DNA of 64,000 nucleotides from Mesorhabditis belari (Eukaryota; Nematoda; Chromadorea; Rhabditida; Rhabditidae), in contig CAUEEP010000909.1 in the NCBI GenBank assembly GCA_958450365.1, positions 385,501 to 449,500 of the forward strand, given 5' to 3'. The translations under genes and the position numbers were made by a program. Shown piece after piece: positions 1,659 to 46,838 of this stretch (the stretch's first letter is position 1; every line of letters starts with the position of its first letter). The notes under the pieces are model-generated. The model saw only the letters and a program-made list of their open reading frames with translations. It did no database searches and was not told where the DNA came from.

Positions 1659-4600
1659 ATGTCGTTTCTGAAAGTCAGCTTACTAATTTGCCTTTTATGG
1701 GTTTGTTTTTATAATATTAGCTAAGTATTTGTTTATTAGCAGAAAAACGATGCCGCCAAGTACAACGAGTTTGTTCTCGACGAGCTAAATCCATCATTTG
1801 CAATTCATGGTATGAGACTGAAAAAACTGGAGGTAATACGAAAATAGTTTAAGCTTTCTTCAACAATTCAAATGCTTTTGAATTTCAGAGTATAACGGTT
1901 TTTGGCTGTGATGGCTGTGACTTTTTGATCGACTACACACAGCGTGGATGCACCACAGAACAAGAGGTAGTTCAAGTCAAAAGAATGGTCAAAATGCTAA
2001 TTCCCAGAATATCTGCAAAGATCCAATACCATTTACGATTAATTGGAACAATTTGGATCCGTCGGATGGACAACAAGAAGTCATGTATGTACCTATTGGG
2101 TTGTCCAGTTATGAATGCGCGTTTTTTACTATTTTGTAAATTTCTCAAGATACCGAAATCAAGAAAAGATATATATGAGTGTTATTCAAAAGCTGAAGAT
2201 CTCCTCTACATTTTGATATAAAAAGTTTTTGAATTTGTTCAGCTTTTGGGCAAATTGACTGCACAGAAGAAGAGGTGGCCAAAAAATGGAAGGGTGCCTT
2301 TGGATCAAGTTTTGGCTCCGCTCAAATTGAGTTTACCGTTTGATATTTGACCAATAGATATATCAATACAAATTTTTTAAAATATAACAATCTCAGAGCA
2401 TCTTTATTTTTCTTTTCTTTTCTGGGCGGTTATTTTACACCATAAAACTTGAGTGACTAGCTAAACTGGGATGGGCTTTTCGAAAACGACCTCTCCCTTT
2501 TCACTCTCCCATAAAGTTGAATGAATTCAAAAACTTTTTATTCCAAAATGTGGAGATCTTCAGCTTCCGAATGTATATAACCCTCATTATCTGTTGCGAT
2601 ATCTTGAGAAATTTACAAAACAGTAAAAACCCGCATTCATGACTGGACAACCCAATATTATTGGTTTAATAGTATTATAAGTTTTTAGAATACTAACAGA
2701 ACTAATTGCAAATAATGATCAGAATTTAAAGCCTTCTAAACATTTGAAAATGCAATGATATTTATAGTCCTTTTCAAGACAACAAATAAAATGAGTTCTT
2801 CTATGCATTTGCATTCAAATGTTCTCAAGAATCAGAGCTAGCTGTCACACTAACAGGCGAAAACTCAAATTTGGAATTCGCTATCTCTTTCCGTGTACTA
2901 CAATGGGTTGATGGTTTGATTTCACGAAAATTTCGGAAGAAAATTATTTTCAGAGGGAAAGAAAGTGATTGTATTGCCTGGAAGTGGTTTCCCGGATAAT
3001 CCATTTTATGTATTGGTGAGAGAAAACTGGGTTATCACAACAGTCACCTTTCCACCTAATCTCACTTACGAGTAAGCGGCCTTAAATAATGTACAATGCA
3101 CATTTTCCAATTTCCGTAGAACTTTTCAAAGAACTGCACAATTTTTAGCCATAGTCCGAATGTTGCACTTGAAGCGACAAAATGGGATCAAACATTTGCC
3201 TCTACTTGCCAAACAGACGAGGTTTCTATTTTGAGAAATTGAACTAATCTGCTGTACGCTGACTCGATGAAAGTTTGTGCATAGTACTTTCGTGGGAACT
3301 TTATCAATTTCTTCAACTTACCACTTACCTCTGTTGTTTAGGATTTAAAGAAATGCGCTACCGACGCCAAATATTCGATCTACTTTGGATCAGCTCCGGG
3401 CAAAAAATATAACGAACGAAATCACTTGACCGATCTTGAGTAAGAAGCTTTATTATATAGCAGAGACAAACCTTCTTTGAAAAGATTGAAAAGATGGAAA
3501 AGATTGAAAAGATTCAAGTTGAAATTTTCTCCTGACAATTGGAAATTGTTCAATCGTTTCTTTTCAGGGCCAATTTACCTCTGAATCCCCGCACAAGTGC
3601 CAGCACAATATTCGCTGTTGACAATTGTGCTTTTTGCTTAAAATACACAATTAACCCAGGTAAATTACTCTTGATTTGTTTCAAGTGTCCACCTCTTTTC
3701 AGTAGTACCCGGGTTGGACCTAGCGTCAATGTGGTCTTCCTTTTACTATCCATGGAGTTTCGATCGCGCTGATTTGTATACTGACTGTTGGACTTGGACC
3801 ATTCTTTTTTCTGCAACAGTAATTTGAACTTAGCTATATTTTAAATTATAGCTAAATAAGAGACACTAATTTGTTTATTCCACTTTAGAACCGATTGCCT
3901 CGGCCCGTGATCCTCGAGCTACCACAATTAAAAGGTGGAAGACTGCAAATAATTGGTTTCGGATGGTTGAATGATAACGCCGGATGTGATATTGTCATTT
4001 TCAGGAAAACGTTAGTTATTTATATCATTGCAAAAGATGAGAAACTTCAGAATTTGAATGGCTTTTTAGATTTCTCGCTCCTCTAGACGAACCACTACGA
4101 TTTTCAACATACTGTTTCAATGTTTGTTACTTATCGCTTTTTTTTCTAAACAATCTGAATTAGATTCAATTCTGCACGGATTACCCGCTAGGAGATCCAG
4201 ATCAAGGATATGTGTTACTTGTGTGGGAAGACAATGGAATGCATACAATCACAACAAGATCACCAATCACTATAACCAATGCCACCACTTCGGTCGATTC
4301 ATTTTCGACTGCTTGCTCATGTCCAACACTACCTGTGGAAACGACAGAACTAGCCACCACAACGACAAAGATCGATTCTACAACCATGACAAATTTACCC
4401 TCTTGCCCAACTATTGCTCCTAATATCTCATCTTGCCCAACCATCACCCCTTGTCCAGCCATCACTCCTTGTCCAGCATGCACTAGTTGCCCAACTGTTA
4501 CCAGTTGTCCAACAACTCCTACTTGTCCAACGTTTACCCCTTGTCCAGCCATCACCCAATACCCAACAACTTCTCCTAATCCAGCGACAGGTCTTTCTTC

Positions 4601-4745
4601 GACGACAACGACAACAGCAGCAACAACACCAGCAACAATTTTGCCAACTACAGGAACACAGTATAACAACTCGGCTACCGCCACATCAAACAGATATTTT
4701 TCACTGTTGCTACGATGCACTACCTTTTATTTGATGCGTTTTTAA
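1659..4745 (+). CDS. FAIHG/IDYTQ family gene A, GPI-like tail, one internal stop
   Basis: Thirteen exons: 1659-1700, 1740-1832, 1889-1966, 2008-2084, 2768-2913, 2954-3071, 3149-3221, 3342-3439, 3568-3659, 3703-3818, 3889-4010, 4070-4121, 4164-4745. All joins keep frame (about 562 codons), but exon 5 has a TAA at 2787-2789, so the copy may be dead unless this is a sequence error. Blocks in order: signal peptide; PSFAIHGMRL; LIDYTQRGC; C-DPIPFTIN; EFAISFRVLQWVDG; VIVLPGSG; a Cys-ending block; YSIYFGSAPG; CAFCLKY; WSSFYYPWSFD; LKGGRLQIIGF; a short Cys block; and a GYVLLVW block. The tail is Thr/Pro-rich with about ten short repeats of the TPCPAI type and ends hydrophobic, like a GPI signal. It is the only member on this strand, convergent with gene B. 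An alternative in-frame start lies at 1632. Confidence 0.7.
2096..2655. mobile_element. Mariner-derived non-autonomous element in intron 4 of gene A
   Basis: Bounded by inverted ends reading TTGGGTTGTCCAGTTATGAA (left) and its complement (right), flanked by TA at 2094-2095 and 2656-2657. The ends match those of the mariner at 11815-13077. The interior carries no transposase frame; only a short stretch near 2260-2310 looks transposase-derived. A deletion derivative. Confidence 0.8.
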
Positions 4746-6279
4746 TAGATGGTTCTGGTTTTTATTGCATCTACTTGGAGTATTCAAAAGATAGAAAAAT
4801 GTATTAGTGTTCATATAGTTAAATGAACCCCAAAAACATGGCTCTTTTCACTTGGCTGCCAAAGACTAAATTCTATTTTGTGCCCTCGCCCATTTCTATT
4901 TACCACTCGATTCTGTAACATTTTTCTCCAAATTGGCCAAAATTTAATTTTTTCGGAGTCTTCTCGTGACCCTCCTACTTTCTCGGATGCTTTCGCCGTA
5001 CTTTTCAATTTCTTGTGTCACATAGAGCGCCTTTTGCAACTTTAACGATAAATATTATAAAATTTCTCGGTCTCTGTCAATAAACATCATCTTCAATTCA
5101 TTATTTTTTTAAAAACTCTGGAGAAGCTCAAAAACATTGTTTCTTGTCAATTTTATTGTTTGGATTGCAAAACAATTGGCTTATAAGCAACCTTTCGGAT
5201 GCGATCTGCGGAGAGATTGCCCACAGGGCCAGCTGGGATTCGATGCGAGCCTAACCCCGAGCCATTGAAGCTCTAAAGGACTCCAAAGGACGCATCCAAC
5301 TATATACATATGATTAATGCTCAAGTTTATCGGCCTTTGAAAAGATTCTATTTATGTTTTCTGTGCCCCCTATTTGTTTTATTGTTTTATTTCTCAAAAA
5401 CGTTCCAAAACGCTTCTAATACATAGAAAAGGCTTAGTTATGCATCAGAATCCATTCTTTGACCCAGTTGACGTCGTGGACAATACAAGGTATTAGGACC
5501 AGGCGAAACACGGTCTAGGGCGGCGCCGTTCAAATCGGTAATATTTTTTCTGTGCGTCCTCTAGCCAAATTTTCAGAACAATCCGTTCAGTTGATTTCTT
5601 AGTCGAGCTTTTTATTGAATTTTACAAGAAACGGGTTTTTCTCGCTCGGATTTTCCTTAAAGCGAACCTAGATTGACTTAAAAAGGTAGAAAAATGACCA
5701 AGAAAAATTTTCTATTTGGAGCCAATCGTCAATTAGTGAATTAGACATTTTTGAACGGATTTATAAAGAAAATCTTCAAGACTTATCTTCAAGACTTCAA
5801 GAGCCAACTCAATACTTGTGAATGACAATTACCTACAAGGTTGAGTAAGCCTTTTTTGGGAATTGTTATCTTAAAATATTGAGAATTCGAGTAAATTTTT
5901 GAATAAAAGCGTATTCGTTTATTAACAAATGAAACTGATCACAGAAATGCAGTTTTATAGTGTGCTGTTTTATCTGATTGTTAAGAAATTTCATGCAACT
6001 CAGCAGCAAAATTAGCATCATCGTCTTCATCGTGCATCTAAATTAATTGTAGCAACATATATAGTCCTTTAATTCAACCTGTACAGCAGATTTATGAGCA
6101 TTAGCTTCCCTGAAGATACTTCCAAACAAACTAGAAAAAGATTCTTTTTTGCCAAACTTTTTTGACAATTGAGCTGACAAAGAGACAAAACAGAATTCTT
6201 AATTTTTTCACTTGTAATAAGAGCTAGCTAGCTAGATAGTGAAACAAGAAACAAATTAAACAAGCGGCAAGTAAAAGAT
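4746..6279. other. Convergent intergenic region between genes A and B
   Basis: Lies between the 3' ends of A (+) and B (-). About 5490-5860 resembles, in diverged form, the interior of the MITE at 58425-58946; for example, the stretch around 5600-5680 follows the same order of bases as 58745-58830. The rest, including the GC-richer patch at 5210-5300, shows no gene or RNA that I recognise. Confidence 0.45.
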
Positions 6280-9200
6280 TTAAACTTGTTTGTAATCTGT
6301 AAGCACAAAAGCAAACCCAGTTCGCATCCAAACGAGCAAAATTAGACCAGCACAGCAGAGAATTAACAGGGATATCACTGCTATGAGTACAATTTTCAAT
6401 ATCGGCAGATTCTTTTGAATAGTTGCATTTGTTGTTGGAAAATCTATAAATGAAGAAAATATTGATGTTTTAACTTTTTAGCAACAAATTTGAAATGTTT
6501 TCTTTTACCGATTAGCGTCGAGATTGGCGTCTTCATGGTTGTAGTTGATGCAGTTTCTGTGGCGGTTTTTCTTGTTGAACTTGCTGGGTAATTGCACGAA
6601 AACAACTTCAAAGGATTTCCAGAATTCGATTCTATGACTTTTGAGCGATTAGCTGTAGCAGAAGCTGGCTTGAGAAAATACGAAGTGGAGTTTGAAGTTG
6701 TTTTCGCGGTGCTGGTAAACTCTTCAAGTGTTAGGTGAAAGCCAGCATTTGGTTTTGGCGGGTGTGTCGAAGTCCATTCAATCTAGAAGTTTAGTGAGAT
6801 GAGTTTAGTTTAGTTTAAGGTTTAGTTTAAGTTTAAGTTCTCAATTGTTTAAGTTTAGAATATAGACGTCTTAAACGTGTTTATCCGTTTTCGAATGATA
6901 CCAGAAAATGCTTAAAGGGGGGAGATATTAATCGCGACCGGAGGGCCATAAAAACTTTTTCAAGGTAACCACCTGTTTTTCACCCGGCTGCGACTCATAT
7001 CCCCTTTTATTTGAATCACAACGAAGGTTCTCATCATTTTTACATCAATTGAAAGATGAGAAAAGGTGCATTTACATTTTTGAGCACAAAACACAAAAGC
7101 AACTTATGTTTCAGTACATCTTTGCATGCGCTGAAATCGCACAGTAAAGTGGATTATATGCAAAAGAAATAAGTATTGTTGATTGGCTAATATTGTTGAT
7201 AGCTTACTCACTTCTAGGCACGCATAGCCGTACGGTCCGACAACTGTCACTGTATTAGCTGGTAGGTGATCATCACTGTAAGATATTGTAGTGCTAAATG
7301 CCAGTAACCGTAAACAAAAAAGCTTACTCGAAAAGATTCAATGATACTCTTCGCGAGCAATGATGCTCTTCTTTCGCGTCGAATACCCATCCGGTAACTG
7401 TTAACTTCCCATTTTGAACTTCAAACACAGTAAGTTTCATTTGCCGATTCTCCTGATTTATTTAACATTAGAAAAAAATTTAAATATTAGATTTTGATGG
7501 CAATGAAGCTTGATGTGTTGTCAAGAAAAATCTCTTCAGTACTTGGTTTTCATTTCTTATATTATTAGGTTGGGGAAAAAGTCTTTGCCAAATTTTTGGG
7601 AGACGGTCTTAAACTTGTCCGATCTAGACGTGTAATAGCTCATTCAAAAGCTAATTTTCCAGCTAATTTTTTCAAGAAATATCAAAAATATCAAAAAATT
7701 GATATATTAGAAAAATCGTTGTTTAATATATCAATTTTGAAAGTTTTTGTTTTACGTCAGACCCCAAATTTCAAAAAAATGATTTTTTTTCGTTTTTTTT
7801 TGTACCGAAACCTAGGCTGAAACCATGTTTTTCGGAATCAGTGTTGAAAATTACCCTAGAAAATGCAAAACGAACGCGTTTGGCCAAATTTTTTCAAAAA
7901 GCCTTCCGCGCGCCGGAGCCGAACCCTTGACACTTGATCACCGCTTTTAGAGCTCTAAAAAAGGAAAATTCAACAAACATTAACGGAACAATGAAACCAA
8001 ACAAACAAAACCAAACAAAATCAGCTTTAGAGTCGTAGAAAACAAAAAAAAAGAGGAAAAATAACTAATTTTCTTTTTTTAGAGCTCTGTAAGTGGTAAT
8101 CTGAGGGTCGAGGGTTCGGCTCCGGCGCGCGGCAGGTTCTAAAAAAAAAAAATTAGACTAACGAATTTTGCATTTTCTAGTGTAATTTTCAACGCTGATT
8201 CCGAAAAACAGGGTTTCAACCTAGGTTTCCGTAGAAAAAAAAAGGAAAAATTAATTTTTTTTGAAATTGAGATCTCAGCAGACTGCAAAAGCTTTGAAAA
8301 TTGATATATTAAAAGCCTTTTTTATCCAATCCGCTAGAAAATTCGCTTTTGAATGAGCTATTACACGTTCAAAGTGGACTTGTCCGCTTTGAACGTGTAA
8401 TAGCGTGTCCTAAGTTTAAGATCCTCTCCCAAAAAATCGGCAAAGACTTTCTCCCCAACCTAATACAATAAACTAACCGAAACAGAATCAAAGACGCCCC
8501 AGTAACTTTGTTTCGGTGTCAGTGCGGCTCTGGTCATCAGTTTTGATTGATCAAACACCCATGGATGCCAAAATGGTTGCCACAGCGAAAACTGATTGAT
8601 TAACTCCACTAAAGCTTGCTTGATGTGAGGTTCGAACGAGAAATTACAAAACTTATAATTAGCTAGGTAGTAAATGTCCTGCAAACAAGCATTATATTTT
8701 TATGAATCAGATTTCTATGAATCATTAAAATTAGAAATTTGGACTATATTTATATGCACTATGACGCAGACACGCAGAACAACTAACTCAAGGTCTTCAG
8801 CTAATCAATCAAAAGCTGATTTAAAGACAAATTTAGGTTGATTTTGAACTTTTGAGTTGAGTTAGCTAGTCAATTGAGCATACCTGGTGTTCGGGTTTCA
8901 TAAAGAAGACAATATGAACAGTCGACAATTGTTGGGAATATTGTTGTTGCTGAAGATCTCGAATATGTTGTTTGGGAAAAACTAAAAACAATTTAATGAC
9001 ATTACTGAATTTTTACAATTTTCCACATTCTTACGTGTCATTTAGTATATTTTTTTGGCCAAATAAGCCAGGATCCCCGCCAGCATATGTCGTGAAGACC
9101 GTATATTTCTGACAACTCATCTCCTCCTAAAACATCAGCTCGAACAAAATCATTGTAAGACTGAAAATCAATAAATGGTTTCAATGACTGACTTCAAATT

Positions 9201-10720
9201 TCCGGCATCCATCTTTCTCCGGGAAATTCGAATCTTTGTATATAGCTCTGAGCACTGTCCCGGGGCCCTCATTGCTAAAGATCTGCATGTAAACCATTTA
9301 TCAATTGCACTCACAAATATGTGTACGGGCTGGGAACAATTGTAACTTTGAACTTTTCTTTAACCAAAATAAAAAGAGGCCCCACGATCTCGTCGGACTC
9401 GATTCCCGGAAGTACCAACAGATCCGTATTCACTAAATATCGATAAATCCCTCAAAAGTCATGCAAGCACAAATCATTTGACGAATCCGGAATGAAATTG
9501 CCGATTCGTAATCAAAAATCGAACCTTGTTTCCGCACAATCAATTTAGTGCGATTGTTCACTTCAAACTGTGAACAATAGAAAAATCCTGCATATGCATT
9601 GTTCAGATTTGTGTAAGCTCTATAAAGTTATGAAAAAAAACTTAAAAATAAATGAAAAAGAACAAACACAATTTGACTATCTGTAGCCGTCAATGTCTCT
9701 CCATCGATTGAGAAAGGCAGTGGATCTTGGCAAAAAGTTTTATCCTAAAATAATATGTTCTCAAAACGCCGTCGCTTTACAGCTTTCACATTACATTTAA
9801 ACGGTTCTTTTCCAATATCAGGGGAGCGGAAGGATTATCGGGGGAGCGAAAGGAAAATCGGGGGAGCAAATTTTGTCCCCTCGAAAAATGTATTTCCGGG
9901 ACTTTATTTTAACTCCAACGTTTTTTAAAACTTTAACGACGATGCGCTTCTCCGATATTTGTGCGTTCAAGAAATCGACGGCAATCGATTATTTCGTCAC
10001 CAAAGGAGTCATCCAGTCGTGGATTTGCAAATGTGGCAAATCGATGAAAGTCCGCTCAAAGGGAAAAGGTCTATTTCGCTGGGTATGTGACACTTGAGCA
10101 GGGCGAAAGGTCCCCAAGCATTCAAGAGGAATTCGAGTCGATAACTTTTTGCAACAAAGCAAGCTCCCGTTAGTCACAATTTTAAATAGGACATATGTAG
10201 CGCTGCCAAAATTTGCTCCCCCGATTTTCCTTTCGCTCCCCCGATAATCCTTCCGCTCCCCCGATATTGGAAAAGAACCCATTTAAACATATCTGCCAAA
10301 GCGGATAAAAAACTGAACCAAATAGTTTTTTAAAAAGCCTTACTAAGGATATGTTTTTGCATCCATTTTGCGAAAAATCGATCACGAAGCCGACAAAGTC
10401 AGGAGATCTGATTGTAATTTGCTAAATCACGAATTTTTTCTATTTTTTCAAAACGAAGTTTCCTAATTTTTCTAAAATGGCCAAATTAGAATGATTACCT
10501 CCTCGTTAATTAACCGATCGGTATGAATGGCGAATGAAGGGGCATCACAGGAAAGATCAAATACACACTCTATAAGTACACTTATGCTATTGATCTCTGT
10601 GTATCTCCGTAAATTTTCTTGGCCAAATATCAAACCTTTTACGGAACTTTTATCACAGGGTGTCAAATCTTGAGCAAAAACTATTAAAGAAAACAATTCC
10701 AACGAAAATACGAAATACAT
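6280..10720 (-). CDS. FAIHG/IDYTQ family gene B, type I membrane protein with Thr-rich stalk
   Basis: Exons, in transcript order: 10720-10499, 10421-10344, 9744-9668, 9619-9471, 9432-9315, 9274-9193, 9126-9035, 8981-8884, 8608-8478, 7452-7328, 7275-7212, 6782-6509, 6443-6280. Every join is in frame, giving 557 aa; a possible 66-nt intron inside exon 1 would give 535. Signal peptide MYFVFSLELFSLIVFAQ, then PSFAIHTDRL, VIDFSQNGC, C-DPLPFSIDG, AISFRIRQ, LLVLPG, YAGGDPG, CSYCLLY, LWQPFWHPWVFD, a GKLTVTGW block, a Cys block and IEW...GFHLTL. This is followed by a Ser/Thr-rich stalk, one transmembrane helix encoded at about 6325-6400 and a short basic tail. The usual WVNG end of block B4 is absent (QMIL instead). 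The long introns hold a Merlin-like element and a MITE. Confidence 0.85.
7565..8463. mobile_element. MITE (mariner-like ends) with tRNA-like segment, intron 9 of gene B
   Basis: Inverted ends TTAGGTTGGGGAAAAAGTCT with TA duplications at 7563-7564 and 8464-8465. The two halves are broadly inverted copies of each other. At about 8098-8140 it contains a tRNA 3'-half-like stretch (GGTCGAGGGTTCGGCTCC, a polymerase III B-box look-alike), with the mirror copy at about 7905-7940. Related elements sit at 25476-25964 and 32235-32826. Confidence 0.8.
9803..10279 (+). mobile_element. Merlin-like deletion derivative with 9-bp target duplication
   Basis: A 477-bp element in intron 2 of gene B. Inverted repeats of roughly 75 bp start GGTTCTTTTCCAATATC and contain three GGGGGAGC-type motifs. 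The direct repeat CATTTAAAC (9 bp) flanks it exactly at 9794-9802 and 10280-10288. An open frame at 9873-10097 (+) ends in a zinc-ribbon-like part (C-x-CG...G-x-FRWVC) like the N-terminal domain of ISXO2/Merlin transposases. An 8-9 bp duplication is known for Merlin elements. The catalytic part is gone. Confidence 0.65.
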
Positions 10721-11814
10721 TTTAAGGAAAAAAATAATGGTGAAATACCAATCGTTTGCTTGTGAAAACAAAAGACGAGAGAAAAGGGAAAAGAGAAAAG
10801 AAGATTAGAATGAGAAAAGAATGTTAAGTCATTCGCTCTTAGAAGGTGCATCTCATGAAAAGAAAATCTGAAGAGAATTGATACAACTTTTCATTTAAAA
10901 AATTATAAGCTCGTTTTGATGATCTTGTTGGCAATTGGTGACTTGTTGACATGGTAATTCAAGAGAGCTTTGATTCTCTACCCAATAGGTCGATTCATAT
11001 TGTCAGATTTCTTTGTCAGATTTTGTCAGAATTCTTTTGAGGCTTTAAATAATTGAAAAACATTCATATAGATGAATCAAATGATTTCGCTAGCGAAAAT
11101 CATAATCGGCTAGCCGACTATGAGTGAAAGTAGCTTTTTCTAGAAATTTGCCTTCAAATGGAAATTAAAAACGGTATCTTAAATCCAAGTTAGTATGTTG
11201 ATATTGAGTTGCTCAGTGATGTATATTGTCAAGGTAATTCCTGAGGTTTAAACTACTTTTATTGAACACAAGCAAACATTAACGAACATAATAACAAATG
11301 ATCTCGAGTTAAACAATAGCGACAAACAAAATTAACAAAGATTTACAAAATTTGCCCTTGTTATGGTGTTAGGAATTGCTATGGTGGCATCGGCTATTGC
11401 AGAAAATCTGAAGAGGATTGATACAACTCGGCTATTGCAGAGGACATTTGCTTTTCGATAGGCATACCTTCCATTCACACACCCATTTGTCACACAGTTC
11501 CAGTGCTTATGGCCTAAAAAATAAATAATATCCATTTTCAAATGAATTTAACTTAATATTTCAGAACCAGATTAAATAGACTTACCTTGCGATTCAGTCA
11601 AAGACTCGGCTCCAACAGCGGTTCGGAACAACATGTGGCACTTTTTTAACAGTGATGAAATTGTTATTAACTGATTTGAATTGGTTCCTTGTTAGCCCTA
11701 AATAAAATGTGATTATAACTATCATATAACTATAAAATAACCATTTAAAAAATTACTTTTGTTGAAGAATTTCGTTTTTAGTGGCAATCTGATAAAATCC
11801 CTCATTTGATTCTA
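10721..11814. other. Intergenic upstream of gene B
   Basis: Upstream of gene B and ending at a mariner insertion. A 30-bp stretch (GAAAATCTGAAGAG...GATACAACT) occurs at about 10860-10890 and again at 11400-11430. A minus-strand open stretch at 11332-11541 has splice-like edges and four cysteines (its part from 11515 to 11430), and could pair with an exon near 11585-11680. I cannot close it into a gene with a signal peptide, so I leave it unassigned. Confidence 0.35.
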
Positions 11815-13077
11815 TTAGGTTGTCCAGTTATAAATGCGCGTTTTTAAGATAACAACTCTTTATTTTAAAACCAACAGCTTAACAGCTCAATCAATAATAT
11901 ATTCACCATTTGTTAACAATATTTGTTTCCATCTTCCATGCAAAGAATGAATTCCCTCCGCGTAAAAATTGGCTTGTTTTGAGGCAAAGAAGTCGGCTAT
12001 CCATTTTTCGACCTCTTCAACTTCTTTGAACTTGTTTCCGGCCAAATGGTCTCGCATTCAGCGAAATAAATGGTAATCCGAAGGAGAAATATCCGGAGAA
12101 TATGGCGGATGCGGGAGAGTTTCCCAGCCCAACTCTTCGAGTTTTTCCTGAACAATCTTTGCAACGTGTGGACGGGCGTTATCTCGAATAAACTTTATGA
12201 TTGAAGGATCAAGGCCTTTTTGTAGCAATACATTGTTCACTCGTTCCAGTTGTTGTGCAAACGTTTCACCCGTGATTGTATGTCCAGGTTTAAGCAGCTC
12301 AAAATAAACAATGCCTTGGGAATTCCACCAGACAGTAAGCATTACTTTCTTTCCATGGAAGTCGGGGTTTGGTGTTGGTATTGGCTCCTCACCAGGTTCT
12401 AGCCATTGCCGTTTTCGTGTAGAATTATCATATTGAATCCATTTTTCATCGCAAGTAAGGATTTCATCGTAAAACCCAGTATTTTTTGCCAAACGAAGAA
12501 GAATACCCGCCATAGTGACACGAGTAGCTTTATTGGCATTGCTGAGAAGATGAGGAACCCATTTCCCTTGTCGGCTTGTTTTCCCCCAATTGATTTAAAT
12601 GCTCGGAAATTGTTTGAGGGCTTACTCTAAATATTTCTGCAAGTTCACGTGTAGTTTGTCGAGGATCCATTTCTATCGCCTGCTTCAGTACTGCATTATC
12701 GATCGCAAGAGGTCGTCGTTGGTGGTCTTCGTCTTCCAAAGATTCATTTCCTTCTCGAAATCGTTGAAACCATCGGCGACACTGGCTTTCTGAAATAGCA
12801 TCTTCGCCAAATACTTTGCAGAGATCTCGATGAGATTCAACGGTATTTTTGCCCAATTTGAAGTCATACCAAAGACTGGCACGAAGACGAAACTTCGTCT
12901 CGGTCATCTAAACACGGAAATTAAATCAAAAATGAATTAGTTTAACGTCAAAAACACGAAAAGTTGTAATAAATAAGAAATCTTAGACAGCATATAGAGA
13001 ATAGGGTTTGATAAAATTGTATAGCCCTAAGGTACGCTGTTTAAGAGCAGGCGCGCATTCATAACTGGACAACCTAA
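11815..13077 (-). mobile_element. Mariner (DD34D) transposon, nearly intact
   Basis: A 1.26-kb element with matching ends TTAGGTTGTCCAGTTATAAA and TA duplications (11813-11814, 13078-13079). The minus-strand transposase starts at 12907 and shows the paired helix-turn-helix (CRRWFQRFREG, RQTTRELAEIF), the catalytic DEKW, DNARPH and SPSDYHLF motifs, and a C-terminus near 11905. The frame shifts once near 12570, and a TGA follows the HLFR motif at about 12058-12060, so the copy is dead but young. It is the likely source of the ends seen at 2096-2655. Confidence 0.88.
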
Positions 13078-14195
13078 TAGATGACCTCAAAAACCTCCAA
13101 AACCAAAAAGCGATGAAGCCAATCATTGGACCACCAACAGAATTTATCGGTAGTCGGCCTGTTCTTTCCACCGCAACTGGTCCAAATCTAACAAAATAGA
13201 TTAAATTTAAATGAAAAAACAAAGCATGCCTATTTTTTGAAGCCTGCACTTCTTGGCATTGTAGGGCTCCCTCTCCGTGTCGCAGAATATTTTCATCTCA
13301 CTGTTTTAACTCTGAATCAAAATATTAAATTAACTTTACAATAAAACATTCATATTCATGCTATGACTTTCCTGTTGCTTTCTCAAACTCCTCGTCGGCT
13401 TCGTCACTCGTGTCCGGGAAAAAAGTTGGATTTTCTGTCTATGCGGCTCGAATCGATTCACTCCAGTCGTCAAATTCTTTGTTTTCATCGACCTGCAGCA
13501 AACGAATAAATTTGACCGACAAAAATAATATTAAAATCTGATTTTATTACCTCATTTTCGATTTCATCTTGATTTGTTGGTAGCTCTCTTTTTTTCAAAG
13601 CCAAGTGTCATCTTCCGACCAAACATTGCTTCAAATGGCGAACGTCCGATCCCTCAATCAAATCGCTGATTCTTCATCGACTGCACAACTGGAAAATGGT
13701 CCAAATCTAACATTTTGGGCCCACCTTGTAGATTTTTGCTTTAACTTGCTGTTAACTTGCTAAATCGTTTCTCTCTTCGATACTAAAGCATTTTAACAAT
13801 CTGTGGGACTTTGCCTGTTTACAATGTACTTCTTAAGATGCTTTGTTCTGTATTATAATAGAAAGTTTTGGTAGAATTTTATAAAACTGACAAGCAAAAA
13901 AAATATCAAACGAAGTACAATGAAATTAGCAATATGTTGTTCGACAAAATTCAACCCATGAAATGAATCATCCCGGATATTTATGACGCACACGGGTTTC
14001 CTCTTCGACAATTTTTTTATTGACTTCTATCACAGATCTCGCTAGTTTGGTGATATGTCGCGGTTTCCGCTTGGCTTTTCGAAGTTCCTGAAAATTTTCT
14101 GTATATTTCAAAATGCGCCTATATGTATAACTGAAAGTCTTACTTGATTCCTTTTTTCCTTTGGAATTTCTCTTTCACAGAGTTAAACATCGAGG
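13078..14195 (-). other. Intergenic with a probable integrase relic
   Basis: On the minus strand, about 13740-13440, translated pieces read GRSPFEAMFGRK and, further on, an acidic linker (DEIENE...DENKEFDDW). The first piece resembles the end of retroelement-type integrase cores (the 'SPFEAMFG' motif seen in GIN/KRBA2-like proteins). Stops and frame changes break it. The rest, including 13080-13330 and 13780-14190, shows nothing I can assign. Confidence 0.35.
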
Positions 14196-23009: not shown

Positions 23010-23091
23010 CTTGATTTTCTGAAGAAAACGCTAAAATTTGAAACAAAAATGACATCTTATATATACCTAAATGATCAACAAAACGCTGATC

Positions 23092-23140
<49 letters not shown>

Positions 23141-23344
23141 CAACAACAACAACAACAACAACAACAAACGACCAACAATCGAGCTTACAAACTATTTTTG
23201 CCATAACATAATAGCTAATACTAACAATATGATAGCAAATTATTGTAAATACGTAATAAATTTATGGTTGACTCATTGGTTGTTTTTTGGGATTCATATA
23301 TAGGGATTTTGACCATTCATCAACAAAATATTCACATCGGAAAG
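23010..23344. repeat. Short intergenic region with (CAA)n microsatellite
   Basis: Separates the 3' end of gene D from the start of gene C, both on -. A (CAA/ACA)n run of about 75 bp fills 23092-23167, inside what should be gene C's promoter region. Long open frames across it (poly-Gln or poly-Val) are low-complexity artefacts. Confidence 0.85.
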
Positions 23345-29871: not shown

Positions 29872-30109
29872 TCAATTTCAAAACTTTGAGTATATTGAAA
29901 AGAGTGTGTCACCCCTAAGTACCGTCCCTTTTAATCTTCCCCGAGAACCAAACAAAGGTGGTTTCCAATGTAAAAAAAACCGCAGAACTTCTATGTGAAC
30001 TTTTGTGGATTTTGAGTAAGATGATGCAAAATTTTATTAATCAACGTAAAATCATTAAAAATAAAAAGTGGTGCTTTTAGTAAGCAAGGGGTACTGTAGT
30101 GGTAAAAAT

Positions 30110-35386: not shown

Positions 35387-38300
35387 TCAAGCGATCATTT
35401 CGTACAAAAAACAAATAATAAAAAGTTCAGAATATTGAAGAATTGATTCTTTTCTCTTAACAACTTCGGGAGCTGGGTATTGTTTGGGTATGTGGGCAAA
35501 ATGGAGACGAAGAAAACAACCTTCTGGATCTTTCTCGCCCTCATCCAATGCATTCCAAAAGACCTTAAATGGGGGTTTTGTAAAGTATTTAACTAGAGTA
35601 AAATAGGGCTAAAATAATAGGTTTTATTGATTTAATCTAAAGTTGATTTAATCCCTTTAAACTTATTGATTTGAGTTTTCAGAAACTACAATACATTCAA
35701 TTTTAGAAACTACAATACATTCAATCCTGTTTTGTTTGCAATCGTAAAATTAGCCGGTATCTTTGTCCCAGGTAGAAGAACTATCCTAAATGAACATAAA
35801 CGCTAGAAAAAAAACTATTTCCTTACGGTGTATCCTTGCTTCCATGAATTGTATCAAGAATTTCGAGGGTTAAATTCCCGGAACCGATTTTAAAGACTTC
35901 AATTTCGATATTAATTTTGCCATCTAAAAGCTAATGCGTGAAAATATTAATACAATAAACAAGCCGCAAAAGATATGATGCGAAAAAGTGTATTGCTTTT
36001 GCCAGTAGTACGGAAAAAATAGTCCCTCGGACGGATTTCCATAGCCCATTGAAGTGAGGAAGATTCTGCCATCACATAGGAGTTTTGTACGATTAAAGAC
36101 GGTAGCTATTAACGCTTTTTTTTTCAAACTTCGGAATAAAGATACCGGTAGTTATATGAGGAAGAGTTTTTAAATAGATAGTCGGTGAGCATCCAGCTGG
36201 AACCAAAACACTGTAGCAACTCGAATCCAAAAACTGTGGCTCAAAACGATCCGCGTCGCTGCAATTTGATTGCTCAAGTATACAAATTGAATAGTTATTG
36301 AGGATCGAATTTTTAAAACACCTCGATTTAAACTCTTATCCGAGCACCTGAATGTCGCAAGATGCCTGTCCAAGGGAGTCCTATTTGTACGTGGTGGACC
36401 ACTCCAAAACTCGTAAAAACACTCTTTTGTAGCATGACTCTAAATCCAAGATCAAGCGAATTCGAAAAGATATACCCAGCGAAATTTCTCTAATAAGCCG
36501 TATGCGTTGTAGTTTAATAAAGAAAAAGTAATCCACGTTGGTGTGGCTCGTGATTTGACTTCATATCCCAGTGTCGATTCATAATAAGGACGGCTTCCCA
36601 AATTGTTGTAAGTTGGAAACACATAGATGTTTAAATCAGCTAAAACCATCCGAATACTTTCAATTAATTGTTGATGACGCGTAAAATTATATTAGCATCT
36701 ACCATTTCTTCGCACTATTGCGGAATACGCCCAGGTTTTTGGATGATTGAATTCAGCAAAGAACGCAAGCTCATCGACAACGAGATGGCAAGTGAATAAA
36801 GTTGTCTTGTCAATCTTCGATGGCCTTAATTTCAATTGAATGTTTTCATACAAAAGAACTTTAATTGTATTTTTACATTACCATTCTTCACACTCTTCCC
36901 ATTCCTTCACATTTCGATCGACTTGAAAAAGTTCGAGAGGGATTGTGGTTGAACAATCAGCTTCCTAAATTAAAAATTCTTGGTTTTGGCTAATGTAGAG
37001 TTGCATTATAGATTGATGCATAGTGGAACATCAAATGATCAAATCATAATTAATCACAGCACTTCTTGTGGACATTGGAACGCCAGGTCGACAAAGATTT
37101 CACAATTTCGATCATCGCATTCCCTGTGAATGCAAAGCGGCTGGTTTTCATGAATGACGATATCTCGAAAAATCATATGTGGTTCATCGATGGTCAATTC
37201 ATATGTGACTAAACAGTTAGCATTGTCTGCAGGAAAAACCTCATCATTCTCTTGAATCGAGAAGACAAAGCCATGGGGTGGCTCAGTCTTTGCCCAATAC
37301 TCTCCAATCTGGAATGTCGTGATTAATAGCACCATAGATTGAAACCCACTATTAGGCAACTAATCAATGTTTTGATTTCAAACGTAGGCACCGCATCAAA
37401 GCTGAAATTATGAATGTGTATGCTTCAAAAACGGGCACACAAGTAAACTAGTTTTGCTTGTTCAAAGACCCACTAATGCCATTGCCCGTGGTTTCTTGTG
37501 CATACTTGCTTATCGTTTCCAAGTGCTCCGATTTCAAGTTTAATTCCCTCAATTGATTTCACAGAAATTAGTACGATATGCTCACGATTCTACAATTTAT
37601 ATCTCTTCGTCAATCCATCAAATATTTTATCTACTTTGCAATGAAGACAAATTTATTTCGCAGAAGGTTTTGCAGGGTGATTTTTTGCAATATAACATAT
37701 ACTTTTAGCATTAGCCAGGGCTTAGAACAAAATGATTAAAAAATGATGAAAATCGACTTTTTTTGCCACTGTTTGAGGGTAAACTTAGACTACCGGACGC
37801 TCCTATGGGGGCTCTTCTATTAGAATATAGCGGTACTTCTTTGAAAGTAGTCATCCCATAGTCATATGAGTGATTTCCACTTTGATATGGTTCATCGTGT
37901 ATCCAAGGATAGAAAGGAGACGAGAAAAGAGCAAAATTGTCCAAAAATTGAACATCGCCCGCTAGATATATTATTTAGAAAAAAAACGCGAAATTCATGG
38001 AGTTCTCCTTTGACTTTCAAGGAGAACCTTGAATTTTAAAAAAAACCTGAAGCAACGCCTTTATTAGCCTGATAAGTCAAACAAAACAAGCAACTGCTTG
38101 CCGCCTGAACGCTGGTCGCCGTCGTTTTGGTCACAATCGAAATATTGCTTCTGAAAGTCATTTTTCTATTTACCGGCAATGAAACACTTACTTGTAATCA
38201 CCAATGTGATATCTTGGATCCGGATTTAAACCAGGATCTGAGCCAAAGAAAACCGAATACAATGACCCTTTCGGGCAAGTAACGTCAACCTAAAAGTGCC

Positions 38301-39699
38301 AGTTAGCGGCTTTTTAACATGTGGATCATGTTAACTATCACAAATGATGCTATTTTTTTTCCATTTCTTGACTAGTGGACTTAAATTTTGTCGGCAAAAA
38401 TCTCACTTTAAAATGCTGACATGGGCTTTTTTCATCCATTTCTTTGTCGTTGGGCTGTAGCACCAAATTCAGTTCCAACGTAGGTCTAAAAATGAGTACG
38501 AATCATTAGCACATAATTGTTATAAAGTCAAACTTTAGTATAACGAACTTCGATATAACAAACACTATTTTTGGTCCCAACGTCCAACGAAAAAAAATAG
38601 GTTAACTCAAAAATATTTAGTTAGAAATTCAGGTCAGTTTTTTTATCAATGAATGTTTCCAGAACTGGAACAGAACTTGGTCGCTAATCGCCGAATAACT
38701 TTATGATTTCGGCATTAAGCTTATAAGCTTTTGAGAGTAATCCGTTTAAAATTTTATTTAAACATACTGATTCTACGCTGAGAAATCAGCAATTTAAGAA
38801 AGGGTCAAGACTTAGTTCACAATATCTCATGACTATGAATATCTTATGACTGCGTCAATATTAACGAAATGATGTATAAAAATGACCAAAAACAAAAGAA
38901 AAACCGGATGACTTACAAATTGTAAGGGGGATAAATGACGGCTGTCACAATGACATCCAATTTCACTAAGACGAAATTTTGTCGTTTCGTCTCGTTAACT
39001 GCCGGTAGAACCCAGATCTTTTTTGTTGCTATAATTTTTCCCATTTATGTTTAATTGCTCGTCAAAACCGTTAACCCAATTCTTTACTCGAAATGAAAGA
39101 CCAAAATCTAAAGGGTAAACATCAGCGGTGTAATTGACAAGAAGTGACATTGAATTGCTAGTTTTATAGGTGAATGTGGTAGAATAGAGAAGTTCTTGCA
39201 TGTCTTCGTTGTACGGCCTGAAATCAATCGATTCATTTTGAAAAAGGATAATTGCCCATCTTTAAAAAGGTCACCTACATAACTTCTCCATTTTTTGAAT
39301 CCAATATTTCTCCATTAACAGTAAATGGAAACTCGTCCAAGCAAGTTTTATAGACATCAATAGAAATCTTATGATTTTCCTGTAAACAATTCATTACAAC
39401 GTCACCTTGATTTTTCCCTACTAGACTTGAATTTCTCGTGTTTTTGCACCCAACTTGAGTGTAATCAATGAGGATTTCCCGATTTGCAACATTATTATCG
39501 TCAATCGAAATTGTTATCTTCTGAACAATCAAGCAATTACAGAGTTAAAGTCATATCTTACCTTAAACTCCAGTAATCGACGACCGTGTACGGCATAGGA
39601 TGGACTTTTTGAAGTCAACGAAATGTCAACGGCAATAATTGACTGGGTGAAAAGGATAATTGCTCCAAGTGTGAAAAACATTGCTCTAATTTTGATCAT
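35387..39699 (-). CDS. FAIHG/IDYTQ family gene F, two tandem units
   Basis: Unit 1 exons: 39699-39562, 39520-39422, 39379-39279, 39217-39069, 39028-38917, 38485-38407, 38289-38192, 38150-38047, 37961-37837, 37589-37474, 37401-37350. Hinge exon 37308-37063. Unit 2: 36964-36882, 36824-36703, 36639-36476, 36439-36320, 36272-36146, an exon near 36100-35960, one near 35935-35830, 35785-35719, 35563-35387. Joins are in frame except at the two approximate exons. The hinge exon encodes unit 1's last block (GEYWAKTEPPHGFVFSI) and continues into a diverged first and second block of unit 2. Unit 1 has PSYAVHGRRL, LIDYTQVGC, GLSFRVKNWVNG, YSVFFGSDPG, CLFCLTY and FYPWIHD. Unit 2 is the most diverged in the array. 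The last exon ends in a hydrophobic stretch, possibly a GPI signal. Confidence 0.75.
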
Positions 39700-39856
39700 G
39701 CTTGAATTTAGGGTTGCTATTTTTTTCGCTTTAGAACCAAGAATTTCGAAACCCCGTGAAAAAGGCTTTCAGAAGGGTTTCCTTTCTGATAAGGGACAAT
39801 GTTTTGCAATCAAATATGAACAAAAAGTCTTTGAAGTGCATACTAGTTTTTAACTA

Positions 39857-40953: not shown

Positions 40954-41232
40954 TATTTAATTGTAATGAAATGCCAAAAACTCCATCAACTTTACCGGTA
41001 CAAATCAAGCTTGAATTTGAATTGAAAATGAGTTGCTTGTTATGTTTTTAAGTCAAGAAACAAAACAATAAAGTTACCATTATTTTTCCAAGGAATCTCA
41101 AAGCTTTTTTGAGGAATCTCAAAGCTCAAAGCTCAAATTCCATTTTGAATGTTTGTTTACAGAAAGCAATCTTCAGTGTCAATTATGAAAAGGCAACATG
41201 AGAAAAGTTTTATTGAATTTTGAACAGATAAC

Positions 41233-43319
41233 TCAATTTTCTTGTTTTATCGTCACAAACAGTCCCACATTTTCAACCGGTTGCCCATTCAGTTCGGGCC
41301 GCCAGACGAGCTGAATTTCATTTAACTTTACAACAATAAAACACCAACTTCAACGCAAGCAGTCTTCAGCGAGAACTTGACTGGCTTGATAAAACTAAAC
41401 GATCAGATTGATTGGTTTCAAAGTTTTTATTTTTATTCTTTACAACTTAATTATTTCTTTACCACTTAATTATTAGACCTTTTCCTGTAGACCAAACCGT
41501 TACAATCTTTTCCTTCCAAACCCAACACTCGTACAGATCCCGTCTCGATCATCACGATTTCAATCGTCGCATTTTGTGAACTCCAGCTTGGTACCTTAAA
41601 TTCATAAACATTTCAACAAAAAATGAAGCGCTAACTCACAGTTTTTTCAAACGAACTCCTCCAATCGAAATTTTGAATAACATAATCAATTTGATCATGC
41701 TTCCATGGATAAAATGAAGGCGTCCACATGGCCCAATCATCTAATCCATAGTGAGCTGAAACAAAAAGCTTAACTCTTTCTTGATTGACTAATACGGTAG
41801 TTGGCATGTAATTCAAAAAATGTTTACGCTTTTCTTATTTGTCAATACAGACCTATGTCTGGCTGATACAAGAGACAGAAGGAACATTGCTTTTCGACGA
41901 AAATCGTGGTCGCTGTCGTTTTTGAAAGCACTTGTTGGTTCAAGCTCAAGTCTTATAATAGTCTTAGTCTTATTTTTTGAGAATAGTTTGAGTAAAGAAA
42001 TTACAAAACCCACATAGCATCGATTAAGTGGTAACGCTTCTCGAAGCTTGCACCGAGAGCAGAACCGAAGTAGACGGGAAAAAGCTCTTCATTTGAGCAT
42101 TTCTCTTCTTGCTTAAATCATTCAAATGATATAATCGATGTGTTATGTGAAGTTTATTTCATTTGTTATCTCATAAAAATCCCTTCTGACCGTAATAATT
42201 CTACAGGAAGCAGGTACTCTTTCTGGATCGGTGATTGGAAAAACGAGTAGTTTTGTTATGGGTCCATTACTAAACAGAATCATAACTATGTTGAAGCTAT
42301 AGAAAGAAAAGTTCGCAATAAAGTACTCGTTTGTCTGGTTGATCACAATCGTAAGGATTTCGTCCCTTTGAACAGCCACGAAAAAGCTAGCTTGATTATT
42401 TCCTGTTCCCGGGATCACCACCTTTTTCTTGGTATCTAAAGAGGTGATCATTTGACATGAATGTGGGATTGACCTTTAATTTAAGAAAAGCATTTTTAAA
42501 AGAAAAAACAAATGCGACAAGGATTGGAAAACTGGCCATAATGCACAATGAACAAGCCAAGCAAGCCAAGCACAATGAAAAGTCAAGCAAGCCAAGCACA
42601 ATGAACAAGCCTACAAACCATTTTGCCATTCTTCGATTCTCAATGAAACGGCAAAGTCATAAGACACCACATTTGCTTTAGAAGATAGTACAATTTTGTG
42701 AGTCATATTCAGCTTAGTGGTGACCATGTAGAATGAGTCTGATTCGGTACGAGGCCTAAAATTGATTTGTTGGAGATTTAAACAGTAGCATTTGGAAATC
42801 TGGAATCGATTATCTAGAAACTCTTATCTGGAAACTTTATTAAGTCTTGGTACCTAAAGCATGTGGATTTCTGTGACTTCCAGAATCCTATGGAGTGAAA
42901 TATAAATCATACTTTAATTCAAAGATATTTGGTAGACCAGGCTCTTCTCCATTAATCAAAAAAGGAATCGGATCAAAACAGTTGCCAGGTTCCGCACTAG
43001 ATCCAGAGTCGATACAGTTAGCTTGAGTGTAATCGATAATCCATTTGCAAAACGTGCAATTCACTGGTGTCATTGTAATGGTCTAAAATCATTTATAGAC
43101 AAAAGTCAAATTAAATTGTGTTAAAGGTATGTATGCAAACTTTTCGATAATAAATGTTCAAATTCAAATTCGATAATTCAAAAAAACCTCGAACATGGCC
43201 AATCGAAAGCCATGAATTGCAAAGGATGGTGATTTTTCATCAAGATACAATTGCATTGTGCGACGTCCATTGACAAAGGGACAAAAAAGAAACTGGAAAA
43301 GAAATAAAACCAACAGCAT
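41233..43319 (-). CDS. FAIHG/IDYTQ family gene G, secreted form
   Basis: Eleven exons: 43319-43188, 43082-42913, 42755-42619, 42435-42327, 42269-42191, 42102-42014, 41944-41853, 41755-41640, 41594-41479, 41394-41349, 41310-41233. All joins are in frame (387 aa). Signal peptide MLLVLFLFQFLFCPFVNG, then PSFAIHGFRL, WIIDYTQANC and CFDPIPFLING fused in one exon, AVSLRIEEWQNG, KVVIPGTG, NGPITKLL...C, VYFGSALG, CSFCLLY, MWTPSFYPWKHD, a SVRVLGL block, a Cys block and LVWRPEL...GLFVTI. It stops four residues later, so the product should be secreted. The 57-nt intron 42326-42270 is a multiple of three without stops, so its retention would be tolerated. Confidence 0.86.
42530..42612. repeat. Tandem AAGCCAAGCACAATGAA repeats in gene G intron
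   Basis: Imperfect repeats of AAGCAAGCCAAGCACAATGAA-type units in the intron between exons 42755-42619 and 42435-42327. They create an open frame that is a repeat artefact. Confidence 0.7.
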
Positions 43320-43588
43320 TATTCAAGTTTTCTGCAGCAGAAATGAGAACGACTTTATCAGAGAAAGAGAGAGAAGTGACTGCTTTAACTGAAAGCTCTT
43401 TCATATAAGCTCTTTTCTACCGTTTGTTTTGTCAGAAATAAAATGACTGAAAAATACTATCATATTTTCTGGCAATGATGATAACTTTAATTTAATTTAA
43501 TAACCTTATCAGTATAGTATTTTCTTTCAAATAAACGGTGTGTGTAGCTGTTTTGTTTTCAAGTAGAAGATTTCAAGTATTTACTGTG

Positions 43589-46500
43589 TCAAAAGCAACG
43601 GCACACTTTTATAAACGCAAACACAGAGACAGAAAAAACACGAAGAGTTCCCGCTCCGTTTTGTTCAGAAGAAGTCATCGTTGAGTCTGTTGTGATTTCC
43701 GTTAAGGTTGTTGTAGTCAAAGCCGATGTGGTAACGTTTGTTAGAGTTTGATCCCAAATATAAATGAGAAAGCCAGAGTCATCTTGAAGAGGAGTCGAAG
43801 GTTGCCATTCTAACTGAGACAATTTAGGTTACTTTATTGTTTCTTATTTGTCTGACCCGAATGCATTGTGCTTGAAAAGGAATCTTTGGATAAAAGGGCA
43901 CAGAAGTATAGCTAAAACTAAAGCTTTGAACGTGACGATCATCAACAAAACCTGAATTTGAATGTTGTCGTGTCACAAGCCGCTTTGGTCCCGTAAACAA
44001 TAACCTCTCCACCGCTGAGTTGTTTCAGCTCGCCGATGAATGGTTTGAACTCTGCCTAACAGTTTTCGATTAGATTTATTTGTTCATTTGGTTTTGTTAG
44101 CACCAACCGCGTATTCGTAATACACTTGCTTATCATTTTGTGGGCTAAACATGCTTTTATCAGGTAGATCGAAAAACCAAGGATACCAAAAAGGTGTCCA
44201 CAATGAAAACACATCCAAACTAAGTGCTGAAAGAGCGACTTTTTTTTGGAATTCGATTTTCCGAAACAAAACCTGGAATATTTGTGTTATAAATCAAACA
44301 AAAATTGCATTGATTCCGAGTAAACACACTTGATGCCGAGTTCCTTGAATCGATCGATGTCCCTGATCTGTAAGCGACAAATCATGTATGTTTAAAGTTT
44401 GTACAGGGTGACAAAAAATTAATGTAGTTGTTACCTTTTGGTAATGTAGGTGTCAAAGGTCTAATTAAATTCAAAAGTACCAAGCGTTATAAAGAGAGTT
44501 GAAATGCTGAATCCTGGCTCATTTACCTACCGCAAAATGTCCAAATTATAAAATTTGGTTCAACTACCAAGCTCGGAAATCAGCTCTAGCCGGCCTTTCT
44601 TCGGAGCGCTATCATTTTTTTCTAAAGAAATCCTTACAAAATGGCAGCCGTTCGAAGAAAGGCCGGTTAGAGCTGATTTCCGAGCTTGGTAGTTGAATCG
44701 AATTTTATAATTGGGAAGTTTCGCGGTAGGTAAATGAGCCAGGATTCAGGGTTTCAACTCTCTATATAACTCTTGGTACTTTTGAATTAAATTAGACCTT
44801 TGACAACTAAATTACTAAAAGGCCTGTGCCCATAATTTCTTTGTCATCCTGTAAATAGCTTACTCTGTTTCAATTAGCAAATGTTTCGGGTTTTTTGCAG
44901 TTCCAGGATCAGAACCCGCATAGATCTGATACAATTTTTGAGTGGAACACGTAATATTTGACTAAAAGTATATTAAAAAGCTTTTTTATGCGTCAAACCT
45001 GAAAAAAGGAGCATGTTTTTGATTCGATTTGATGATCAACTGGCGTCTGTTTTGTTAACGGGCCTCGCAAACTAGAACAAGAGTTGGCTTTTTAATTTTA
45101 ATTTAAGCATTATATCTGGTTTAAATTCAACGAACTTTTCTGATGAGAAATAAGTCTTCGGATTGGGAACAATTGTGGCAGTGACACCACTTTTGATTAA
45201 GACTTCGTAAATGAGATGTCGAGTAGTGCCAGGAAGAACCAGTATTTTTTGAGTTTCTAATGTATAAATTAAGTTATTGGATTTTCCAAACAACCATTAA
45301 CCCATTGTCGAACTCGAAAAGATATTGCATAATTGCTTTTCACTTTTTCATTAGGACGCACTGTGAGCAATGTCTCGTTTTCAATTTTGAAAGAACTCGC
45401 ATAGAAATGACCGATCTGAGTATTTCCTGGAGAACTCGAATAAAGTCTGAAAAGATAAAAAATGATGGATTTTAACTTAAGATGCGTACATTTCTTCATC
45501 AAATGTAGCTGTTGGTGAGATTCCGTTAATTGTAAAAGGAATCGGATCAGTGCAGACTGGCTCGTTCTTAGTAAGACTCTTTGACTAGAATTCTTGTCAT
45601 TCATAAATTTTGGTCCTCAGATAATAAATGTTTGATTTACTTTTCGAGTAGGTAACTCTTGACAGTCAGTTTGCGTGACATCAATAAGAAAATCGGCAAT
45701 TTCTTTTGCAGAAACTCCGATGCTCTAAAAAGTGTTGAATAGGGAGCTGCAATGCATTGCAATTCAATAAAACTACAATCTATTGGGTTAGTGGGCTTAA
45801 GGTTTATGCAATGTATTAGGTTTATGCAATTTGGACCTGGCACGTCGCAGACTCTCGTTTTCCCGAAAACTTAGTCATAACTTAGTTAAGCCACTATTTA
45901 GAAATCAAAATAAGTGGCGCCTTTAGTAGTAAAAGCACTTGAGATAACAATGAAAACAAGCACTAAACTAATCAAATCTAAATCTAACTAAATCAAATTT
46001 TATCCCCAGTTTCTTGTTCTCAAAAAAATATCTCCCAGATCCTCAAAAATCGACCGAATTCCGAATTTTAACTTGTCAATAGTCAATGTCAATGTCAAAG
46101 GGTTTAAAAGGATATTTAATCGTGTTTGGTGTCTATTCTAACTTCTGATCGTGTATAAGTATACTGCTTTAATTTGTTTTTGCATTCGACGAGTTGTTGA
46201 AAATTTTGAAGCGTTCAAGTTTAGCAATTTAACTCATAACCTGACTTTTCCGCACATTCATTCTGATTTCTGCATAATTGAGCATCAGATCGGCATGAAA
46301 CTTTGGCTCTTAATGGGTAACTTTGGCTCATAATGGATTAGTGGGTTAGTAGCAAAAAAATGAGAAAAAGTTATGACTCAACTGCTTATAGCTGTGTCGT
46401 AGCACACTGTGACGCGAGGCGTTTACAGTATTGATCCACCGGCAGGTTCACCTACCGGTACCTTGTTACGACTTTTACCCGGTTCAAACCGTCGCGATCA

Positions 46501-46838
46501 AGCCAGTTCACCACTCGCAAGGAACAAGTCCCGCGAACGATTCCCTGGATTTCTCGAAACGGTTCAGTCCCGGGTAGCGACGGGCAATTAAGTTTTGGGG
46601 GAAACGAGAACCTGTGACGTGCCGAGTCATACCCACCAACAAAATTCAACACACAAATGTATACTATATTGTTAGCACTACTTATTGTTAGCATTAGAGA
46701 AATAGAAAATACCGAAAAGTTTTGAAGTCGATCACCGTGAATGGCGAATGAGGGAGAATCCTTTGCTAATTGAAAATTTCGACTAGCCAAGATGGGTGAT
46801 TGACCGAGTAGAATCAATATTTGAACAAGGAACATCAT
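43589..46838 (-). CDS. FAIHG/IDYTQ family gene H, GPI-like tail
   Basis: Twelve exons: 46838-46713, 45724-45641, 45584-45490, 45446-45295, 45256-45136, 45071-44999, 44961-44864, 44367-44273, 44226-44108, 44055-43952, 43917-43857, 43813-43589. All joins are in frame (450 aa). Signal peptide MMFLVQILILLGQSPILAS; blocks PSFAIHGDRL, LIDVTQTDC, C-DPIPFTING, YAISFRVRQWVNG, ILVLPGTT, LRGPLTK...C, IYAGSDPG, CNFCLIY, LWTPFWYPWFFD, LSGGEVIVYG, an FQAQC block and LEWQPS...GFLIYIW. The last exon adds a Thr/Ser-rich stretch and a hydrophobic end, as for GPI anchoring. Intron 1 contains an 18S rRNA fragment and intron 7 a MITE. Gene G follows only 269 bp downstream. A second ATG is at 46835. Confidence 0.86.
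44404..44851. mobile_element. Hairpin MITE with Tc-like ends in gene H
   Basis: Ends CAGGGTGACAAAAAATTAAT and their imperfect complement within TA duplications (44402-44403, 44852-44853). The interior folds into a hairpin (about 44500-44610 against 44640-44770). No coding content. Confidence 0.85.
46432..46585 (-). pseudogene. 18S rRNA 3'-end fragment inside gene H intron 1
   Basis: On the minus strand the sequence reads GCCCGTCGCTACCCGGGACT, then the last helix region, GTAAAAGTCGTAACAAGG and GTAGGTGAACCTGC...GGATCA. These are the universally conserved last 150 or so bases of eukaryotic small-subunit rRNA. Only this end is present, with no ITS or 5.8S following, so it is a dispersed fragment and not part of a working rDNA unit. 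Confidence 0.9.

Follow-up and report, generated by a model that had tools for sequence, protein, structure and literature searches.

Organization of the array

This locus raises the question of what is encoded by a tandem array of related multi-exon genes that resemble no recognized family, and what use their host, the free-living rhabditid nematode Mesorhabditis belari, may have for them. The array lies in a stretch of 64,000 nucleotides, analyzed here in full and called the window, within contig C686 (1,288,746 bases) of a 207.6-Mb assembly. Spliced alignment found ten homologous units between 1659 and 46838, nine strong and one degenerate, distributed over about seven genes. The preliminary description had also counted ten units; its outer bounds, 1659 and 46838, proved to coincide with the start codons of the genes at either end, and the motif blocks that it had listed were located at the positions given. 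Its figure of eight genes holds if U4 and U5 are separate, but we count seven (U0; U1; U2; U3+U3b; U4+U5; U6+U7; U8).

The single-unit genes are U0, U1, U2 and U8. U0 (1659-4745, plus strand) encodes a signal peptide, one unit, a Thr/Cys-Pro-rich stalk and a short hydrophobic C-terminus, and U1 (43589-46838, minus strand) has a signal peptide, one unit, a Thr-rich stalk and a short hydrophobic C-terminus that is putatively GPI-like. U2 (41481-43319, minus strand) contains a signal peptide and one unit; its 3' end is uncertain, and its last motif (GFxLxI) was looked for and not found. U8 (6331-10564, minus strand) contains one unit and probably a transmembrane anchor, the segment of which (6399-6331) is in a frame that differs from that of the unit's last exon and would therefore be joined to it only through a putative intron. 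Among the two-unit genes, U3+U3b (36070-39699, minus strand) has a signal peptide, a full unit from 39618 and the degenerate U3b at about 37218-36070, with an uncertain 3' end. U4+U5 (23447-34577, minus strand) starts with a signal peptide at 34577, U4 extending to about 30153 and U5 from 29808 to about 23450; since no signal peptide was seen beside the first exon of U5, we infer a single two-unit gene. U6+U7 (14298-23009, minus strand) contains two units, the junction of which falls inside a single exon (18826-18677), followed by a Thr-rich stalk and a transmembrane segment at 14372-14298.

By eye, signal-peptide-like starts were observed in U0, U1, U2, U3 and U4, and a weaker one in U6; none was found by eye beside U8. 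A transmembrane segment is in frame in U7 and, again by eye, in the database protein P0001. Judged in this way, the genes combine a signal peptide with an anchor or secretion, as in expanded extracellular nematode families, and the extracellular nature proposed at the outset agrees with the starts, the conserved cysteines, the Thr-rich stalks and the transmembrane or short hydrophobic tails, all assessed by eye.

Evidence for the units and their conserved features

The units were scored with a purpose-written splice-aware protein-to-DNA aligner and an iteratively refined unit profile. The nine strong units scored 935-1246, against 58-99 in 16 shuffled or reversed 5-kb controls, values that are partly circular because the profile was trained on those units; eight leftover minus-strand segments of the window scored 50-81 with the unit profile. 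With a profile built from the window only, 22 of 23 loci outside the window or on the other haplotype, preselected by family DNA or protein, scored 206-708, the exception being a locus with the first exons only (L006), whose score of 83 is within noise. U3b, the degenerate unit on the minus strand at about 37.2-36.1 kb, scored 162 when the query was the second half of the database relative P0004 (43-67 in five shuffles). The corresponding half of P0003 gave it a score of 53, against 37-54 in shuffled sequence, and the unit profile gave 54.

In an alignment of 30 rows, including three database copies of loci already in it, six cysteine columns were near-invariant (27/27, 26/26, 26/27, 25/25, 25/25 and 17/18) and two were partial (17/25 and 8/15). 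The conservation of cysteines noted earlier is therefore borne out, but with eight columns and not about nine. Along the alignment, conserved blocks alternate with variable stretches, and N-glycosylation sequons are modestly above expectation (1.20 vs 0.84 per 100 residues). A three-fold internal repeat was also considered: the three trial segments (hhalign E 0.065-0.28) showed no mutual similarity, and so we make no claim of three repeats; the term multi-domain, used in the preliminary description, is accordingly unproven.

Shared introns and an independent gene model

P0002, which others built, is the database model for the allele of U0 carried by contig C474. Its alignment to the window consisted of 14 pieces, of which the last was a forced match of the tail, and the intron phases were 0 (signal peptide) and then 0,0,2,1,2,0,2,1,0,2,0, which reproduces exactly the series first read from the window. 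Its pieces include exons of 78, 77, 98 and 52 nt, lengths that had been reported to recur among the copies. In the unit profile, shared introns were found among 16 units at column 19 (phase 0, 15/16), columns 69/70 (phase 2, 15/16) and column 117 (phase 1, 15/16), and further ones at columns 42-47 (phase 0, 9 units), 156-161 (phase 2, 13), 185 (phase 0, 12), 218 (phase 2, 14), 249/250 (phase 1, 14), 287-290 (phase 0, 12) and 316 (phase 0, 10). P0001 maps to the window's contig, and its model omits the middle of the unit, a gap that we read as an annotation error.

Comparison with known families

No Pfam family was found above cut-off in 4 units, 12 units or 4 database relatives; below it, two matches at E ≤ 1 fell on one of the 4 units, and three stray matches at E ≤ 10 were seen among the 12 units and 4 relatives. 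NCBIfam gave no match in the 4 relatives. Sequence searches of the PDB gave no credible match, the weak ones being judged chance, including the best, ribosomal L29, for which E was 0.0021 over the whole chain and 1.1 and 15 when the two stretches were taken singly. These profile searches against described domain families, lectin and EGF included, thus support the initial view of an unrecognized family. No paper on this M. belari family emerged from a literature search covering titles and the beginnings of abstracts, with thin coverage of subscription journals.

Nematode CUB-like proteins (CUB_2) form expanded secreted or anchored families, as the M. belari array does. It is possible, although we think it unlikely, that the units are highly diverged members of the CUB or nematode CUB-like families, composed of beta-sandwich domains with a decayed sequence signal. 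The family resembles CUB proteins (PF00431) in being extracellular, P0003, one of the four relatives, is named 'CUB domain-containing protein' in UniRef, and the last segment of the unit (L.V.G...C...W.....GFxLxI) is similar, by eye only, to the last strand that ends a CUB domain. However, our Pfam scan of P0003 found no family, and the CUB profile matched 0/4 units, 0/12 units and 0/4 relatives, while the same model found 43 CUB exons elsewhere in the genome and none on the window's contig. Profile comparison of CUB with the unit or its segments gave hhalign E values of 0.15-0.27, like those of three column-shuffled controls (0.15-0.57) and unlike CUB1 against CUB2 (6e-6), a test of low power because the CUB profile was built on two near-identical sequences. 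CUB_2 (PF02408) was likewise above cut-off in 0/4 units, 0/12 units and 0/4 relatives. Exon by exon, the genome held no CUB_2 match above cut-off (the best, outside the window, reached 19.2 bits vs 23), a weak negative because no control genome gave a signal; this leaves room for a replaced counterpart, and to that extent favors the divergent-CUB explanation. The sequence tests are in line with the early view that the family departs from CUB patterns, despite the UniRef label.

Lineage-expanded nematode extracellular families, such as C-type lectins and others, show signal peptides, conserved cysteines, clustered and dispersed copies and copy-number variation. The M. belari family shares these features with them and differs in that its unit matches no Pfam entry.

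Genome-wide distribution and age

The motif-1 codon pattern had 106 exact matches in the genome, against 1 in the reversed control, and the 100 places listed were spread over 46 contigs; the YPW.FD codon pattern had 34, against 2 in the control. A consensus search, in which 128 of 292 candidates were scored, returned at least 150 exon matches at E ≤ 10. All these counts include both haplotypes in some regions. As motif 1 detects 6 of the 10 window units, the number of units in the genome is likely higher than its matches. The protein database yielded four relatives (P0001-P0004) despite more than 100 genomic motif matches; its recall is therefore poor, and we make no claim that other nematodes lack the family. 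More than 100 motif matches in one genome together with no domain entry represent a real annotation gap.

A tree was built from 22 of the 30 aligned rows, after eight were dropped as fragments or near-copies and with one duplicate locus kept; exon fragments were not used for a deeper alignment, being misplaced by MAFFT. The tree was star-like in shape: of the 19 inner branches 12 were open, and the end branches had a median of 1.26 changes per column. Window units were deeply diverged and did not cluster in it (6 label changes against a shuffled mean of 7.2; 116 of 500 shuffles as low), and recent local duplication was therefore not supported. Because the units share intron positions and those of the window are unclustered, the array appears to be old, with dispersed kin elsewhere in the genome.

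As separate observations, a viral origin was tried with one peptide pattern, which had no match in viral contigs, and was set aside. A genome search for the canonical SL1 leader of nematodes that allowed two mismatches at most found 995 occurrences, and none in the reversed control; on G000 contigs C280, C286 and C372, SL1 sequences form tandem arrays whose periods are close to 870, 1545 and 960 bases.

Coding constraint and haplotype variation

The contigs of the window and C474 were taken as haplotypes because their pieces are 98.5-100% identical (97.7% for the short L050 piece) and colinear. Over seven C474 loci, with indels uncounted, substitutions were found at 5 of 3827 sites in modelled exons and at 56 of 9888 sites in other aligned sequence (Fisher p 0.0003), the exon sites being parts of U0, U1, U2 and U4-U7 and none of U3 or U8. 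Of the five codon changes, two were synonymous, two altered the residue and one gave a stop in U4 on C474. Eight comparisons were made between paralogues at loci outside the window. Six were close, with dN/dS values of 0.22, 0.23, 0.24, 0.25, 0.38 and 0.47, and two of these came from a single gene pair measured at different coverage; the remaining two were distant, one giving 0.39 and the other being saturated. These patterns indicate that the modelled exons are under coding constraint and are consistent with purifying selection.

C474 connects window positions 4175-5058 straight to 18085-19956, so that gene U8 is absent from the contig of the other haplotype. The corresponding locus on this contig (L005, C474:37467-40486) is without two stretches of the window, 5058-18085, which contains U8, and 19957-21038. 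The exon DNA of U8 (within 9400-9774) has a single copy in the genome; the other matches listed fall in a repeat at about 9774-10000. In U0, an in-frame stop near 2786 is present in the window haplotype only, through a small insertion difference, the other haplotype being without it, and in U4 the stop is in the C474 haplotype only. As two array genes carry a stop in one haplotype, not every copy of the array need be functional.

Proposed function and alternatives

We favor, with middling confidence, the explanation that the array is one cluster of a large and old family, expanded in this lineage, whose extracellular binding modules are probably beta-rich and would most likely serve to bind microbial or environmental ligands. 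In a typical gene, the signal peptide would be followed by one or two units of about 335-390 residues that contain the cysteines, then by a Thr-rich stalk and by an anchor that is either transmembrane or short and hydrophobic (possibly GPI). Outside the cell, the units may act as disulphide-stabilized, beta-rich modules, in which the conserved motif blocks would form the core and the variable stretches the loops; diversity could be supplied by these loops and by gene gain and loss. Other expanded extracellular families of nematodes probably bind ligands from microbes or the environment, in the gut or at the body surface, and by analogy the likeliest site of action here would be the same, giving the family a putative microbe-facing role. 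The units, conserved introns, constraint, genome-wide copies and haplotype variation on which the explanation draws were all read from the DNA itself; counting against it, close paralogues are under purifying and not diversifying selection, N-glycosylation sequons exceed expectation by a small margin only, and stops occur in two genes of the array, each in one haplotype. This is a new and sizeable family within an already known class, that of lineage-expanded extracellular proteins, and it would be more than that if its fold proves new.

M. belari is known for sperm-dependent asexual reproduction, with a meiosis that keeps heterozygosity (PMC10456839, PMC7433073). A bolder reading, which we consider quite unlikely, takes the unit as an undescribed domain, perhaps with a new fold, expanded in Mesorhabditis and doing the job of the CUB-like or lectin effectors of Caenorhabditis; the array would then be part of a highly copy-variable surface repertoire with null alleles split between haplotypes and kept permanently heterozygous by asexual meiosis. 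If the family is a surface repertoire, M. belari, given its heterozygosity-keeping meiosis (PMC10456839), would allow the study of how gene absence and null alleles in a family of this sort are maintained in an asexual animal.

A reproductive surface family, acting between sperm and egg or in mating and diversified in an auto-pseudogamous species, seems improbable. Membrane-anchored, polymorphic extracellular proteins would fit such a role, as would the dependence of M. belari females on the sperm of self-produced males (PMC7433073); however, nothing in the analysis points to gonad expression, and the close paralogues are under purifying selection. We give equally little credit to structural or digestive proteins of the cuticle, pharynx or gut lumen with no recognition role, since the membrane anchors in P0001, U7 and probably U8 speak against them, even though secretion, Thr-rich stalks and many copies would be expected of such proteins too. 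A largely decayed pseudogene array or a splicing artefact is hardly credible: it would account for the in-frame stops in U0 (window haplotype) and U4 (other haplotype), the degenerate U3b and the missing end of U2, but exons carry fewer substitutions than the sequence outside them (5/3827 vs 56/9888, Fisher p 0.0003), dN/dS is 0.22-0.47 in the six close comparisons, and the independently built P0002 has the same exons.

Other elements in the window

The first intron of U1 contains an SSU rRNA fragment (46429-46700, minus strand), which matched best over the 3' end (SSU_rRNA_eukarya, 119 bits). Two adjacent open frames at 60055-60968 (plus strand) gave weak HTH_32 and DDE_3 matches, below curated cut-offs, and are likely a mariner/Tc1-type transposon. 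A minisatellite with a 16-base period (14779-15441) lies in the U7 intron that precedes the final exons. Short interspersed, partly inverted MITE-like repeats were observed in introns at 9774-10000, 19769-19907, 23899-24037, 25473-25969, 32632-32831 and 33299-33605, the first of which recurs dozens of times across the genome.
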